Assembly (NCBI GenBank): GCA_008501735.1
Contig: QQUF01000043.1
Coordinates: 20,581-84,580 of the forward strand
Direction: 5' to 3'
Source: Calditrichota bacterium
GTDB taxonomy: Bacteria > CLD3
DNA length: 64,000 nt
The stretch's first letter is position 1, and each line of letters begins with the position of its first letter. Positions 48,024 through 57,582 of the stretch are shown here, one piece after another. The notes below the pieces were generated by a model, which saw only the letters and a program-made list of their open reading frames with translations, made no database searches and had not been told where the DNA came from. The translations under genes and the position numbers were made by a program.

Positions 48024-48911
48024 TTATTGCCTATCCATTCTTGCTTGTTCGTCTGCGTGGTAAGAACTACGAACTAAAGGAGCTGATTCAATGTGTCTCA
48101 ATCCCATTTTTTCGCCTTTTACTTTAAAATCCAAAAATTCTTGAGGAGTTACAAAACGAGTTACAGGAAGGTGTTTTTTTGTTGGTTGTAAGTACTGACC
48201 CAAAGTCAAAATGTCGCATTTAATTTTTACCAAGTCTTCAATCACTTCAAAAACTTCGTGATTTTCTTCGCCAAGTCCGAGCATAATTCCTGTTTTTGAC
48301 AAAAGTCCTTTTGACTTTGCACGTTCAAGAACTTCCAAAGTCCTTTCGTATTGTGCTTGTGGTCTAACGAGTTGATAAAGTCTTGGAACTGATTCTGTAT
48401 TGTGTCCGAGAATGTCAGGTTTTGCCTCCAAAACTAAATCTAATGCGTCCCAATTTCCCATAAAATCAGGAATTAAAACTTCGATAGTTGTTTCAGGATT
48501 TGCTTTGCGAATTTCATAGATTGTTCTCGCAAAAATATCTGCTCCTCCATCTGAAAGTTCATCTCTGTTTACAGAAGTAATTACTGCGTGTCTTAAATCC
48601 AAAAGTTTTACGGATTCAGCTACTTTTACAGGTTCTTGTAAATCCAACTCTGTTGGCTTTCCTGTAATGACTGCACAAAATCCACAACTTCTTGTACAAA
48701 TATCTCCAAGAATCATAAAAGTTGCTGTTCGGTTTCCCCAACATTCACCAATGTTTGGACAACGAGCACTTTCACAAACTGTGTGAAGTTGGTGTTCGTC
48801 AACTACTTCACGAACAAATTTATACCCTTGACCTTGTGGAACTTTAACCTTAAGCCAGTCAGGTCTTTTAACGCGTTCTTTTTTTGGTTGAGTTGCAAGT
48901 ATTTCTGACAT
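48024..48911 (-). CDS. lipA: Lipoyl synthase
   Basis: 295 residues. A radical SAM enzyme with two 4Fe-4S clusters that puts two sulfurs into octanoyl groups on lipoyl domains. Auxiliary-cluster cysteines are C46, C51 and C57 (CESARCPNIGEC); the radical SAM motif is C72-x3-C76-x2-C79 (CTRSCGFC). The serine ligand near the C-terminus is in the RSSYHADEQ end. It is the last gene of the packed minus-strand run mnmA-panB-rlpA-cyclase-lipA, 24 bases after the cyclase. LipB is not in the window. Confidence 0.97.
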   Translation of the reverse strand: MSEILATQPKKERVKRPDWLKVKVPQGQGYKFVREVVDEHQLHTVCESARCPNIGECWGNRTATFMILGDICTRSCGFCAVITGKPTELDLQEPVKVAESVKLLDLRHAVITSVNRDELSDGGADIFARTIYEIRKANPETTIEVLIPDFMGNWDALDLVLEAKPDILGHNTESVPRLYQLVRPQAQYERTLEVLERAKSKGLLSKTGIMLGLGEENHEVFEVIEDLVKIKCDILTLGQYLQPTKKHLPVTRFVTPQEFLDFKVKGEKMGLRHIESAPLVRSSYHADEQARMDRQ

Positions 48912-48935: not shown

Positions 48936-51900
48936 CTATTTTAATTTTAAATTTTCAAGTTCATTAATTTTTAAACTAACATCATAAGTTTCACATTGTG
49001 TAAAGATACTAATGTAAAGCTCTAAAGCCACTTTCTGAAATTTATTAGCTTCTTCAAATTTTTCTAATTCTGAATATAATTTTGCTATCTCATAATTCAC
49101 TTTTGCTTTTTCAATCTCTTTAAGATTAGGGTTGAGTAACTTTTCAAGTTCAGAAACTGCTTCTAACTTTTTATCTTTTGTTACAGATTCTTCAAATTGA
49201 ATTTGTTTTGTAAGAATCTGAGACTTTAGAACTGCTTCTGTGTGCTTAACTTCCTCTGCAAATTTTTCAAGTTCTTCTAATCTTTTTTGCAAATTCTCAA
49301 ATTTCTTTCGTTGAAAATTAAGTTCTTCAAGTTCGAATTTAAATTCACAAATATAGTATTTGAAGTTAATTTTCTCAAATTTACTAATCGCGAGATTGAA
49401 AAATTCTTCAGCTTTTTCCAAATTATTAGTTGCTTTAAAAATATTTCCAAAATTCCCAAGAATTAAAGCTTCTGCAGTTTTATCGCCAATTTCAAAATTA
49501 AGATTTTGTGCTTTTGTCAAATTTTCAATTGCTTCTTGAAATTCTCCAATTTGAAATTCCAATATAGAAATATTTATTAAAACACCACAAACACCGATTT
49601 TATCACCAATTTCTTCTGCAAGTTCTCTTTTACGAAAATAAAATTCTAAAGCTGCAATATTTTCTTTTAGTTGCATCGAAGCTGCACCAAGCATTCCTAC
49701 TGCAAGGGAAATTCCCCTTTTGTCACCTATCTTTTCACAGATCTCCAAATTTTTCAGATACATTTCTTTTGCTTTTAGATATTCACCTTTAAACCAATGA
49801 ATATGTCCTTTTGCATAAGTGCATCTTGATAAAAGAATGAAATCTTTTAATTGCATTGAGCTTTTAAGTGCTGACTCTAATTTGCTTTGAGCCTCTTCAA
49901 ACCTGCCTTTTTTCCTTAATACATCTGTATAAATTAAGTTTAAATTTATCAGATTTTCATCTGTAGAATTTGTTTCAAAGTTTTTGTCTGAACGTCCCAA
50001 AAAATCTATTGCTTGGTCAAAATCTCCTCTGAAATTGCTAATTTTACCTAATTCACAAAATATTTTGCCTTTATAGTTATTGACTAATTCTGAACTTATT
50101 GAAGCAGTTAATTCCAAACATTCAGATAAATCTTTTTCACTTTTATCCCATTCTGTAATTTGAGTTTCTAAACAGGCTCTACCATAAAGTGTTTCAAGTT
50201 TTTGTTCAGAGGTTTCAAATTCTAATTCTAAAATATTATTGTAAATCTTTATTGCTTCTTGTGTCTCACAATTTTTTTCTAATTCTTTACAGGCACTAAA
50301 ACCAAACTCAATTTTCTCTTTTACAAGATCTGTATGCTTGTAGTGGCTATAGATAACAAAGGGATTTAATTCGTTTTCTTCAATTAAGATTTCTGCAGTA
50401 ATCTTGTGAAGTAACTTTCTGTTGTGAATAAGTAAAGTATTGTAAGCAACATTCTGTACTGAGAATTGGTTAAAGGAAAAACTTTTAAAGTCATTTTCTT
50501 CAGTTTTTGTAAGCCAACCAGAATCAACTAAAGAATCCAAAGTTGAGTCGCTAAATTCAATATTTTCAAAACTATCGGAAACTTTTGATAAAATTTTTGA
50601 AGTAAAAGTTGTTCCGATTACGCTTGCGACTTGAATTAAACTTTTATGTCCTTTTTCGAGTGTATCCATTCTCGTAAGTAAAATGCTGTTAATATTCATC
50701 GGGATTGAGATTTGCTCTTCATCAATTTCTTTTATTTCACTTAACTCCTTAACTGAAAATTGTGCCAGTAATGATTTAATCCACTCTTCTAAATAAAAAG
50801 GATTTCCGCCTGACTTTTGGAAAAGTTCGTCATAAATTTTTATTGATAAATGAATGTTTGTTAAACGAGATTTGATTAATTCAGAACACTGTTCTAAAGT
50901 AAGCGGTTTTAAAGCGTATTCATCAATTTTAATTTTGCTAACGGTTTTTTCAGAAATTTCATAATCAGGTCTGTAGAGCAAGAAGACAAGAATCTTTTTA
51001 GAATGCTCTGTTTTTCCTTCGTTTTCAATGTTAAAAGTACTAAAAAAGTATTCCAAAAATTTATGTGAATTTTCATCAAGCCAGTGAATGTCGTCAAGAG
51101 TCAAAACTAATGGAAACCCAAAAGAATTGGCACGATTCACAATTGCTTCTAAAATAAACCTTAAAGAAACATTAATTTGGGTTTGTTTGGCTTGAGGTGT
51201 TAAGTCAGCAAACTTAGATTTGTCGAAACTTAAACTTAAAAGATATCTGACAAATTGCTCACTTTTCTTAAGTCTCTCCAAGTCGGAATCTTTTGAAAAT
51301 TTTTGCAAGTTTTCAAAACCCTCACTGAATTTTTTTTCAGAAACATCTTTTGGCTCGTACTCAAAAATCCCAAAATATTTTTGCAAAACTGAGATTAAAA
51401 TCCCATAAGGTATTTTTAAATACGGGTGAGGGTGACCATAAAGAGTAAGATTTTTTTTGTCAACTTCCTCGTATTGTTTTTTGAAAAATTCATAAATTAA
51501 ACGAGTTTTTCCGAACCCACCTGGAGCTTTTAAGCCGACAATCTTTATGGGAGAATTATTATTCTCATCAAGTTGTGTTTTTACTAAATCATACTTGTTA
51601 CAAAGTTCATCTAACTCAAAATCTCTACCAATAAATTTTGACCTCTTGGAGTCCAAAATCCTTTCCCATCTTTTCCCAAGAGTTTGGTTAACTCCTTTAA
51701 CCAAAAAAGTATTAATGGGTTTTTCTTTACCTTTTACTTTAACTTCACCGAAATGCTCAAAATCTATTTCTTCTTTAGCGAGATTCATTGTTTCTTCAGG
51801 AATCATAATTCTACTAAGTGGAGCTTTTGACTCCATTCTCGAAGCAAGATTTACAGCATCACCGTAAACTGTAAAATCGCCTTCACGTTCAACTCCAACT

Positions 51901-52358
51901 TTCCCCGTCGTTACAAGACCAGTGTTAATTCCAACTCTAATTTTTAAATCAATGTCAGTTAAATTTGGGTTTTTTCTTAAAAGTAAATTTATCTGTTTAA
52001 GTTTTTCAACCATTTCTAAAGAAGCACGAATTGCTCGTTCAGTATCGTTTTCACTTGCACTCTTTGCACCGAAGAGAGCCATAATTGCATCACCTTCGTA
52101 TTTGTCAACATAACCAGAATAATTATTAATTACGTTTGTGAAAACCTTGAGGACTTTGTCCAAAATCATATAAACTTGTTCAGGGTCTAACTTTTCACTT
52201 AAAGCTGTAAAACCACTAATATCAGCGAAAAGTACGCAAACTACTCGCCTTTCACCTTCTTTGAGCTTCTCGGTTTTTACCTTAGAGGGCTCTAAATCAC
52301 TTGTGAGTTTATCAATATCTGAAAGTAATAGGTCGTCCCAACTTGAATCTTCAAACAT
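48936..52358 (-). CDS. Class III adenylate/guanylate cyclase fused to AAA-type ATPase and TPR array
   Basis: 1140 residues. Residues about 35-220 are a class III cyclase domain with the metal ligands D46 (FADISGF) and D90 (EGDAIM), the likely purine-selecting K86 (DKYEGD) and D161 (DFTVYG), and the transition-state N170 and R174 (YGDAVNLASRM), so it looks active and adenylate-type. Residues about 240-640 form a signalling ATPase module (Walker A APGGFGKT at 278-285, Walker B LTLDDIHWLDE). The rest is TPR repeats with NFRGDFDQAIDFLGR and LGNFGNIFKATNNLEKAEEFF. Large proteins of this kind occur in many phyla and are thought to be stress-signal integrators. The gene starts 9 bases after rlpA. 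Confidence 0.92.
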   Translation of the reverse strand: MFEDSSWDDLLLSDIDKLTSDLEPSKVKTEKLKEGERRVVCVLFADISGFTALSEKLDPEQVYMILDKVLKVFTNVINNYSGYVDKYEGDAIMALFGAKSASENDTERAIRASLEMVEKLKQINLLLRKNPNLTDIDLKIRVGINTGLVTTGKVGVEREGDFTVYGDAVNLASRMESKAPLSRIMIPEETMNLAKEEIDFEHFGEVKVKGKEKPINTFLVKGVNQTLGKRWERILDSKRSKFIGRDFELDELCNKYDLVKTQLDENNNSPIKIVGLKAPGGFGKTRLIYEFFKKQYEEVDKKNLTLYGHPHPYLKIPYGILISVLQKYFGIFEYEPKDVSEKKFSEGFENLQKFSKDSDLERLKKSEQFVRYLLSLSFDKSKFADLTPQAKQTQINVSLRFILEAIVNRANSFGFPLVLTLDDIHWLDENSHKFLEYFFSTFNIENEGKTEHSKKILVFLLYRPDYEISEKTVSKIKIDEYALKPLTLEQCSELIKSRLTNIHLSIKIYDELFQKSGGNPFYLEEWIKSLLAQFSVKELSEIKEIDEEQISIPMNINSILLTRMDTLEKGHKSLIQVASVIGTTFTSKILSKVSDSFENIEFSDSTLDSLVDSGWLTKTEENDFKSFSFNQFSVQNVAYNTLLIHNRKLLHKITAEILIEENELNPFVIYSHYKHTDLVKEKIEFGFSACKELEKNCETQEAIKIYNNILELEFETSEQKLETLYGRACLETQITEWDKSEKDLSECLELTASISSELVNNYKGKIFCELGKISNFRGDFDQAIDFLGRSDKNFETNSTDENLINLNLIYTDVLRKKGRFEEAQSKLESALKSSMQLKDFILLSRCTYAKGHIHWFKGEYLKAKEMYLKNLEICEKIGDKRGISLAVGMLGAASMQLKENIAALEFYFRKRELAEEIGDKIGVCGVLINISILEFQIGEFQEAIENLTKAQNLNFEIGDKTAEALILGNFGNIFKATNNLEKAEEFFNLAISKFEKINFKYYICEFKFELEELNFQRKKFENLQKRLEELEKFAEEVKHTEAVLKSQILTKQIQFEESVTKDKKLEAVSELEKLLNPNLKEIEKAKVNYEIAKLYSELEKFEEANKFQKVALELYISIFTQCETYDVSLKINELENLKLK

Positions 52359-55297: not shown

Positions 55298-55975
55298 ATG
55301 CAAAAATTAAATTTCCTTTTAATCTTTATACTTTTTACAAGCTGTTCATTGATTTCTGAAGAGAAAAGTGCAGATTCGCAAATTGAAATTATTGAAGAGA
55401 ATGATAAAGTTTTTATCCAAGACAGAACGGGCAAAAAATGGGACGTTACAAGTGCAATTGAAAAGTATGAAATGAAAGCTGATAAATTTCAATTTGGTTT
55501 AGGAACTGACGCAATTCCTCCTGTGATAAATCCAAGAATTTTAAAAGATGGTGAAGCAGGTTACCCTTCTAACTCAGATGAATCTTTGATTTTGGGTGTA
55601 ACAATGAGCAAAGATGCAAGAGCTTACTCAAAAAATCAACTTTCGAGACGAGAGGTTGTTAATGAAAGATTTTCAACTAAAACTGTTGCGGTTGCTTACT
55701 GACCATTGATAGATTTGGCTGCAGTTTACAGTCGGGAAATTGGTGGAAATATTTTGACACTTGCGGCAAGTGGTTGGACTTACGCTTTTACTTTTGTGCT
55801 TTATGATTATGAGACGGAAAGTCTCTGGTACCCAAATATTACAGAAAATAAATTAGAGTGTATAAGTGGATTTTATGAAGGAAAATCATTGAAAGTTGTT
55901 TCGTCTGTCAAACGTTCAAATTGGAAAAAATGGAAAACTAGTAATCCCGATACAAAATGGTTACTTACAAATTGA
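55298..55975 (+). CDS. DUF3179-like lipoprotein with in-frame TGA: probable selenoprotein
   Basis: Read through one TGA (55700-55702) the frame codes for 225 residues. Signal peptide MQKLNFLLIFILFTSCSL with lipobox LFTSC. The family resemblance to DUF3179 (PF11376) rests on GVTMSKDARAYSKNQL, then VAVAY-U-PLIDLAAVYSREI, NILTLAASGWTY, FVLYDYETESLW and the end NPDTKWL. DUF3179 proteins have YCPLC at the position of the TGA, so codon 135 takes the place of the first, conserved Cys. The second Cys of the usual CxxC is Ile here. The frame after the TGA stays open for 90 codons with unchanged family pattern. A SECIS-like hairpin follows. Alternatives: a nonsense mutation, with the part before it expressed alone. 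Function of the family is unknown, probably redox or metal-related in the envelope. Confidence 0.75.
55713..55740 (+). promoter_or_regulatory. Candidate bacterial SECIS element
   Basis: Downstream of the TGA at 55700-55702, ATTT pairs with AAAT (55713-55716 with 55737-55740). GGCTG pairs with CAGTC (55717-55721 with 55729-55733, including one G-T pair). The 7-base loop CAGTTTA carries the GU (55724-55725) expected at a bacterial SECIS apex. GGG at 55734-55736 bulges out. The loop begins 19 bases after the TGA, within the 16-37 base range known for bacterial SECIS elements. Confidence 0.6.
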
Positions 55976-55977
55976 TT

Positions 55978-57582
55978 TTAAGAAAATCCTTCAAAATCAA
56001 CTTCTTCGTCAATAGTTTCACAATTTTCTCTGTAAAGTGGAGTTAACATAAAAATTGAACCTGATTCAGTTTCGCCTTCAAAACGAATGTAATCTTCTTG
56101 AAAATCCAAATCGAACCTGTCAGCGAAAAAGTAAGAATTTGGTGCAATTTCCTTAATCGCGTGTTCGTCTTGGGTCGTGTAATTTCCTGAAAGCATTGTG
56201 ATTTTTGTAATCATTCCAAATTCTTTTGAACTTTTGGCTGTGAAAGAAATTGTTCCCTTGGTTTCAGTTGTTGTGTCGCCGAAAGTAAAGTTTCCGTTTT
56301 CAGTTAAAAACTCAAAATCTGCGATGACTCCTGTTGAGAGCCCTGTTTTTCCAAGTTTGAAGGCTTCTAAAATAGAATCTTCCGAGAAATAATCTCGAAT
56401 TTTTAGAAACGTTTTTACTTTCCCGAAAATCTGTTCATTATGTTCCGTCATTTTGAAAAAAGGAAAACTAACTTGTCTGAAACGGTTGAAATTTCCGTGG
56501 GCATCGTTTCCTGCAATTATTGAGATTTTTTTCCCTTTGAGCAAAGACTGAATCCAACGCTTTTTCCCAACTTCAAAAGAATGGTCTAAAGTTCCGTTCA
56601 ATATCTGGACTCCATTTAAACCTTCAGTGCAAAAATCGTCAAGATTCCATTCACCACGATTAATCAATAATTTTTCCAAAGTTGGAGCTTCGCAACCAGG
56701 ATGAGCAGCAAATGCGACACTTTTAGATTCTAAGTTTTGAAGAATTTGAGAAATAGAATTTTCAGAATCTGTCTGAAACCATTTTTCGGCAGAATCACCA
56801 CTTCCATAAAAGAACTTTTGATTTCCGTAAACTAAAAGATGAACATTTTTGCCAAGAGAGTTTTCACAAGTTGCTTCTTCACCACGAACTACAACAAAAT
56901 TATCGTTTTGGGAGTTCAGTCTCGTTACTTCATTTTGTAGAAATTTCCATTTTTCCAAAGTTGGGGAAGTTTCAAGGTAATTTTCCCATTTATCGTCAAG
57001 GTCGTAAGAGTGGTCTGTTGTTGTGTAAAAATCCAAGCCTATTGGTTTTGAAAGCAATTTCGAAGCTTCGATTGGAGCTCCGTACTCAACTTGGTCACTT
57101 GTTAAGTTTGTATGACAATGACATTCACCAAAGTAGAAATCCTCAAACTTTGGTAAATTTTCTTCAGCTACAAAAGTTTCCAAAGGAGAATTTGAAAGCC
57201 CTTTGTAGTTGTCGTTTGTCGCTTTTTGGGATTTACCTTGTGAGTTTTCCCAATGAAAAGTAACATTCAAAAAATGTTTGCCAATTCCAAGTGGCTCTAT
57301 ATCTTCGACTTTCCACCAAAATTGAGAATTGATTTTTTCATTAAAATAAAAGACTTCTACTTTTTTAGATTCGCCTAATGTTATTTCAACTGAAATTTTT
57401 GTTAAGGTGATTGGATAAGAATCGGAATCTTTTAACAAAAACAAAACAGGGATTTTCTGATTCGGTTCGATTCTGTAAGGAGCATCTGCAAGAATTTCAG
57501 GTTCTTTTGTTTTGAGGTAACTAAAAAAATACTTGAATCTGTAATGAATTTCTGCGTAACCGAAAATTGGAAAAAAGAACAT
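55978..57582 (-). CDS. PHP-domain / DUF3604-like protein
   Basis: 534 residues from an ATG at 57582. The N-terminus is hydrophobic (MFFFPIFGYAEIHYRFKYFF), weak as a signal. After an Ig-like part the PHP-type block begins: YFGECHCHTNLTSDQVEYG (H-x-H motif), DFYTTTDHSYDLDD, VVRGEEATCENSLGKNVHLLVYG, FAAHPGCEAP and IIAGNDAHGNFNR. These match the metal-binding pattern of PHP phosphoesterases and DUF3604 proteins. It has no middle membrane helices, unlike the protein at 19737-21407. The gene starts 6 bases after prkA, so it is likely in that operon. The substrate is unknown. Confidence 0.75.
   Translation of the reverse strand: MFFFPIFGYAEIHYRFKYFFSYLKTKEPEILADAPYRIEPNQKIPVLFLLKDSDSYPITLTKISVEITLGESKKVEVFYFNEKINSQFWWKVEDIEPLGIGKHFLNVTFHWENSQGKSQKATNDNYKGLSNSPLETFVAEENLPKFEDFYFGECHCHTNLTSDQVEYGAPIEASKLLSKPIGLDFYTTTDHSYDLDDKWENYLETSPTLEKWKFLQNEVTRLNSQNDNFVVVRGEEATCENSLGKNVHLLVYGNQKFFYGSGDSAEKWFQTDSENSISQILQNLESKSVAFAAHPGCEAPTLEKLLINRGEWNLDDFCTEGLNGVQILNGTLDHSFEVGKKRWIQSLLKGKKISIIAGNDAHGNFNRFRQVSFPFFKMTEHNEQIFGKVKTFLKIRDYFSEDSILEAFKLGKTGLSTGVIADFEFLTENGNFTFGDTTTETKGTISFTAKSSKEFGMITKITMLSGNYTTQDEHAIKEIAPNSYFFADRFDLDFQEDYIRFEGETESGSIFMLTPLYRENCETIDEEVDFEGFS

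Follow-up and report, generated by a model that had tools for sequence, protein, structure and literature searches.

The stretch of DNA analysed here (the window; 64,000 nucleotides of contig QQUF01000043.1 from a Calditrichota bacterium) carried a reading frame interrupted by one TGA, with 134 codons before it and 90 codons between it and the TGA stop at 55973 (Table 1). The protein obtained by reading through the TGA matched the DUF3179 profile PF11376 with 108.3 bits (cut-off 27) over residues 71-222, corresponding to profile positions 2-147 of 292. When the two halves were searched separately, the 134-aa half scored 39 bits and covered positions 2-64, and the 90-aa half scored 46 bits and covered positions 66-147, each above the Pfam cut-off. 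These results indicated that the TGA occupied position 65, which was the invariant first Cys of Y-C-P-L-C in all alignments made; the chance of a TGA landing on that codon was about 1 in 225. The observation of the earlier note, that a single TGA divides a frame that is family-like on both sides and falls at the YCPLC cysteine, was confirmed as a whole. Among the window's two-sided TGA frames, defined as at least 50 codons before the TGA and at least 40 after it, this was the only one found to be family-like, and most of the 12 others overlapped real ORFs. The genome contained one DUF3179 gene. A standard gene caller would end the protein at 134 aa, a likely mis-annotation that the read-through reading corrects.

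Table 1. Coordinates of the features at the DUF3179 locus (positions in the window).
Feature	Position	Strand	Remarks
Proposed DUF3179 selenoprotein gene	55298..55975	+	225 aa with the internal TGA read as Sec; stop TGA 55973-55975
TGA codon within the frame, at the invariant family Cys; proposed Sec135	55700..55702	+	Same column is TGA in 50 homologues
Predicted signal peptide with lipobox-like FTS-C16, MQKLNFLLIFILFTSC	55298..55345	+	Read from sequence; model confidence low for residues 1-26
SECIS-like hairpin GGCUG(C) / (A)CAGUC, apical AGUUU	55714..55736	+	Register common with 29 covarying homologous hairpins
Possible lower stem, 5' arm CCAUUGAU pairing with AUUGGUGG (55739-55746)	55703..55710	+	64-nt fold, weak
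Convergent neighbour gene	55978..57582	-	Ends 3 bases past the DUF3179 stop

The genome of the window (4.14 Mb, 59 contigs, 100% complete) was found to encode SelA (492 bits), SelB (371 bits), SelD (367 bits) and a tRNA-Sec with anticodon tca (61 bits), and the search for selB and selC that the earlier note had proposed was thus answered in favour of Sec. In 6/9 genomes of the phylum, a tRNA-Sec match above the cut-off was obtained. Two other genes of the same genome, both of known selenoproteins, also contained the Sec TGA expected in them, namely that of SelD itself, in CAGUASK (locus L104 1531, G000:C46), and that of a formate-dehydrogenase-like protein, in UHAPTV (locus L108 1732, G000:C41). 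The hairpin of the latter gene resembled SECIS_3, with 35 bits, under the gathering score of 63. Reading of the UGA by another route, either near-cognate suppression or UGA as Trp, would have to operate beside this complete Sec apparatus; in addition, this same frame terminates at TGA, with a TAA two codons on, and the family residue at the position is Cys and not Trp. Nothing was found in favour of such a route, and we regard its probability as negligible.

The DUF3179 relatives were then compared at the same codon. Nearly all of the 80 genome loci with DUF3179 were Cys forms, and one acidobacterial locus (L062) read WUPLCGSG. In a survey of 396 Acidobacteriota genomes, DUF3179 was present in 133, and about 50 among the matches listed contained exactly one TGA. 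The TGA stood at the window's column in all 50 examined Acidobacteriota loci with an in-frame TGA (L062 included), and a second TGA was located far downstream, at +236, in 2 of the 50. The comparison of homologues suggested by the earlier note therefore yielded the same recoded column, in a distant phylum. L062 belongs to a metagenome-assembled genome (G009) in which no tRNA-Sec was detected above the cut-off, perhaps reflecting an incomplete assembly.

In a tree of DUF3179, the Sec label required at least 7 changes. The clade of YUTLC forms (L191-L200, L157-L182) comprised 20 Sec and 10 Cys rows, and the Cys rows formed one nested clade with an SH-aLRT of 99. A tRNA-Sec of at least 56 bits was detected in 17/18 of the Sec genomes tested in this clade, whereas no match of any score was obtained in the nested Cys genomes tested (0/9). 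The nested clade has likely reverted from Sec to Cys and lost the Sec machinery, which counts as a single evolutionary event rather than nine independent ones. This pattern is what selenoprotein biology predicts. Across all tested Acidobacteriota genomes, the contrast was weaker, with tRNA-Sec in 34/40 versus 26/40; the line of 56 bits used for this count was set by us to exclude tRNA-Ser-like matches near 50 bits. These results indicated that Sec forms of DUF3179 are common in Acidobacteriota, with a switch from Sec to Cys in genomes without tRNA-Sec.

We analysed the hairpin downstream of the TGA by folding and by comparison with homologues. The strong stem was formed by 55717-55721 and 55729-55733, and the apical loop began at 55722, at a distance of 19 nt from the UGA. 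The earlier note had placed the start of a hairpin with a GU loop at 19 bases; the hairpin exists, but this distance fits the loop and not the start of the stem. In the minimum-energy fold the loop was CAGUUUA with G in third position, or AGUUU with G in second position if the C.A mismatch stacks. The minimum free energies were -8.1 (46 nt), -12.2 (64 nt) and -5.7 (bare hairpin) kcal/mol; the bSECIS criterion applied was a G at loop position 1 or 2 together with -7.5 kcal/mol or lower. Published bSECIS criteria comprise a loop of 3-9 nt, an upper stem of 4-16 bp and a spacing of 16-37 nt (PMC13188914), and the window hairpin, with a loop of 7 (or 5) nt, a stem of 5 to 8 bp and a spacing of 19 nt, falls within these ranges. 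The folding energy alone was ordinary (z -0.1 to -1.4; 64-nt fold z -1.4). The exact register with a G-U loop was rarer, being observed at 6 of the 2704 TGAs in the window and in 2.6% of synonymous recodings of the peptide.

The 29 homologous hairpins aligned from the UGA without gaps, and 94.1% of the cells of their 7-pair stem were paired, against 81% in shuffles. Two-sided changes affected five pairs, in 20 cells; none of 500 shuffles reached the observed pairing or covariation value, and all slid registers were far worse. In this register, 6/7 positions of the window hairpin could pair and its G-U stood at positions 24-25 from the UGA. Its weak points were the innermost pair, which is a C.A mismatch, and the outer part, which relies on G-U wobbles. 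No SECIS family was detected at the TGA in an Rfam scan, and a covariance model of the homologous hairpins found no match in a filtered scan of the whole window; without filters, it scored 3.2 bits at the right place. In the SECIS scoring called for in the earlier note, register, loop length, stem and spacing fitted; Rfam gave nothing and the homologue model only this low score. Taken by itself, the hairpin would be no proof of Sec, but it supports Sec when the position of the codon and the homology are considered with it. As a side observation, DUF3179 has two SECIS registers (L128-L189): in UPL forms the loop occupies +23 to +27 relative to the UGA, and in the UTL, USL and UVL forms the hairpin is mostly CACACC-GGUCU-GGUGUG, its loop occupying +18 to +22.

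A sequencing or assembly error, by which the codon would really be TGT or TGC, might be considered for a draft assembly of 59 contigs. Such an error would need to strike the one codon at which relatives have TGA, in a genome that uses Sec elsewhere, and upstream of an in-register G-U hairpin of the kind found at so few of the window's TGAs. We judge it highly improbable.

The window protein differed from the family in several features. Only about half of the full-length domain (~292 profile positions) was present, since the profile match stops at position 147 and the frame at 55975; the Pfam cut-off for PF11376 can be passed without full length. As the convergent neighbouring gene ends 3 bases past the stop, the absent C-terminal half does not simply follow downstream. 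His118 of the family was replaced by Arg (HEIVN to REVVN) and the second Cys by Ile138, and the only Cys residues besides Sec135 were Cys16 of the lipobox and Cys188. The lipobox-like motif suggested that the protein is probably an extracytoplasmic lipoprotein. In the tree it lay on a very long branch and was not placed. No relative above about 40% identity was found in the genomes, plasmids and viral contigs searched; none of the eight further genomes examined from the phylum had the DUF3179 gene, no NCBIfam model matched the protein, and no recurring gene neighbour was apparent around DUF3179.

The long branch, the half length, the loss of His118 and the second Cys, and the absence from those eight genomes would also suit a decaying gene, in which a nonsense mutation in a dispensable, fast-evolving copy happened to hit the Cys codon. 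Decay does not readily explain why 225 codons of such divergence contain no further stop or frameshift, why 90 family-like codons follow the TGA, or why that one codon in about 225 was struck, in a genome with Sec machinery and with 50 homologues carrying TGA in the same column. We consider decay improbable, though less so than an error in the assembly.

No other explanation accounts for the in-frame TGA nearly as well as read-through as Sec. The claim that this TGA encodes Sec was strongly supported by the machinery, the two other selenoprotein genes, the 50 same-column TGAs and the covarying hairpin, and the read-through protein gave a confident AlphaFold2 model (pLDDT 83.5). Counted against it were the 3.2-bit hairpin score, the failure of the whole-window scan to pick up the hairpin, the C.A closing pair, the ordinary folding energy, the long branch, the absence from eight genomes of the phylum and the lack of a close relative by which selection could be judged. 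From these sequence comparisons, it is very probable that the gene is a half-length DUF3179 selenoprotein with Sec at residue 135. SelB with Sec-tRNA(UCA) would bind the hairpin just 3' of the UGA, and insertion of Sec would give an all-beta protein of 225 aa, probably held outside the cytoplasm by a lipid anchor. The reactive group would most likely be the lone selenol of Sec135, since Arg and Ile stand in for the usual His118 and second Cys. At CxxC-type positions, Sec almost always serves in redox chemistry, and a one-selenol redox site is therefore what we infer as most likely.

The earlier note was correct in its Sec reading and mistaken on the novelty of the family, which it did not know as a selenoprotein family. 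DUF3179 is listed as UxxC/T in the selenoprotein tables of reviews from 2022 (PMC9312934) and 2026 (PMC13188914), and the former credits it to 2007 work by Zhang and Gladyshev on the Olavius algarvensis symbiont. Plasmid records are already named 'DUF3179 domain-containing (seleno)protein'. The window gene is thus a divergent addition to a known selenoprotein family and not a new one. It resembles the published forms in family, in having Sec in place of the first CxxC cysteine and in the alternation of Sec and Cys; it differs in its UxxI motif, in its length (2-147 of 292), in its lipobox and in its long branch. The absence of the second Cys, considered an oddity in the earlier note, was correctly read as CxxC to UxxI but proved common: 19/50 Sec homologues lack it, and the +3 residue was C in 31, A in 13, T in 3, and V, D and S in 1 each, to which the window protein adds I. 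Judged by these translated loci, the published UxxC/T motif is too narrow, and the window protein widens it further.

Acidobacteriota selenoproteins such as L130 (WUPLVNAGIVYAREIGG) and L189 (WUPLANAAVVYSRDYDG) have the same TGA column and hairpin register, often without the second Cys, and the AGUUU loop recurs in L062, L128 and L130. They differ in their mostly longer profile matches and better-paired hairpins; L130 is about 38% identical to the window protein. Cys-type DUF3179 proteins (Thiothrix, haloarchaea, Hahella and others) have the domain and the Y-C-P-L-C position in common with it but carry Cys for Sec and an intact two-Cys motif. The Sec and Cys forms provide a practical set for working out the role of DUF3179. 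Particular to the window protein are its half length, strong divergence, probable lipid anchor and retention of only Sec from the His/Cys/Cys set. A new half-length, lipid-anchored subfamily, with this set reduced to one Sec that is possibly resolved by Cys188, may be put forward tentatively, with the odds somewhat against it; if true, it would represent an enzyme with one selenol that is held outside the cytoplasm by its anchor.

The AlphaFold2 model, built with homologues, was mostly beta and, from about residue 30 onward, confident along the greater part of the protein; a single-sequence prediction was useless (pLDDT 36). No relatives in the PDB were found by sequence, and Foldseek with the good model gave no match. 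With that model, the top VIA-align matches were Rieske-type ferredoxins (Z 6.3, rmsd 2.6, 92 aligned; next rows 3.8). Profile comparison did not support this relationship (hhalign probability 1%), and the protein lacks the ligand set CxH...CxxH. An interpolated alignment placed Sec135 near chain residue 34 and the cluster ligands at 46-68. We therefore claim no Fe-S role, as Sec appears to lie away from the cluster ligands and no profile relationship to Rieske ferredoxins was obtained. Elsewhere in the window, a large protein (48936-52358) adjoins a lipoyl-synthase-like gene (48024-48911) and shows, by eye, an adenylate/guanylate-cyclase-like N-terminus, an ATPase-like middle and TPR-like repeats.
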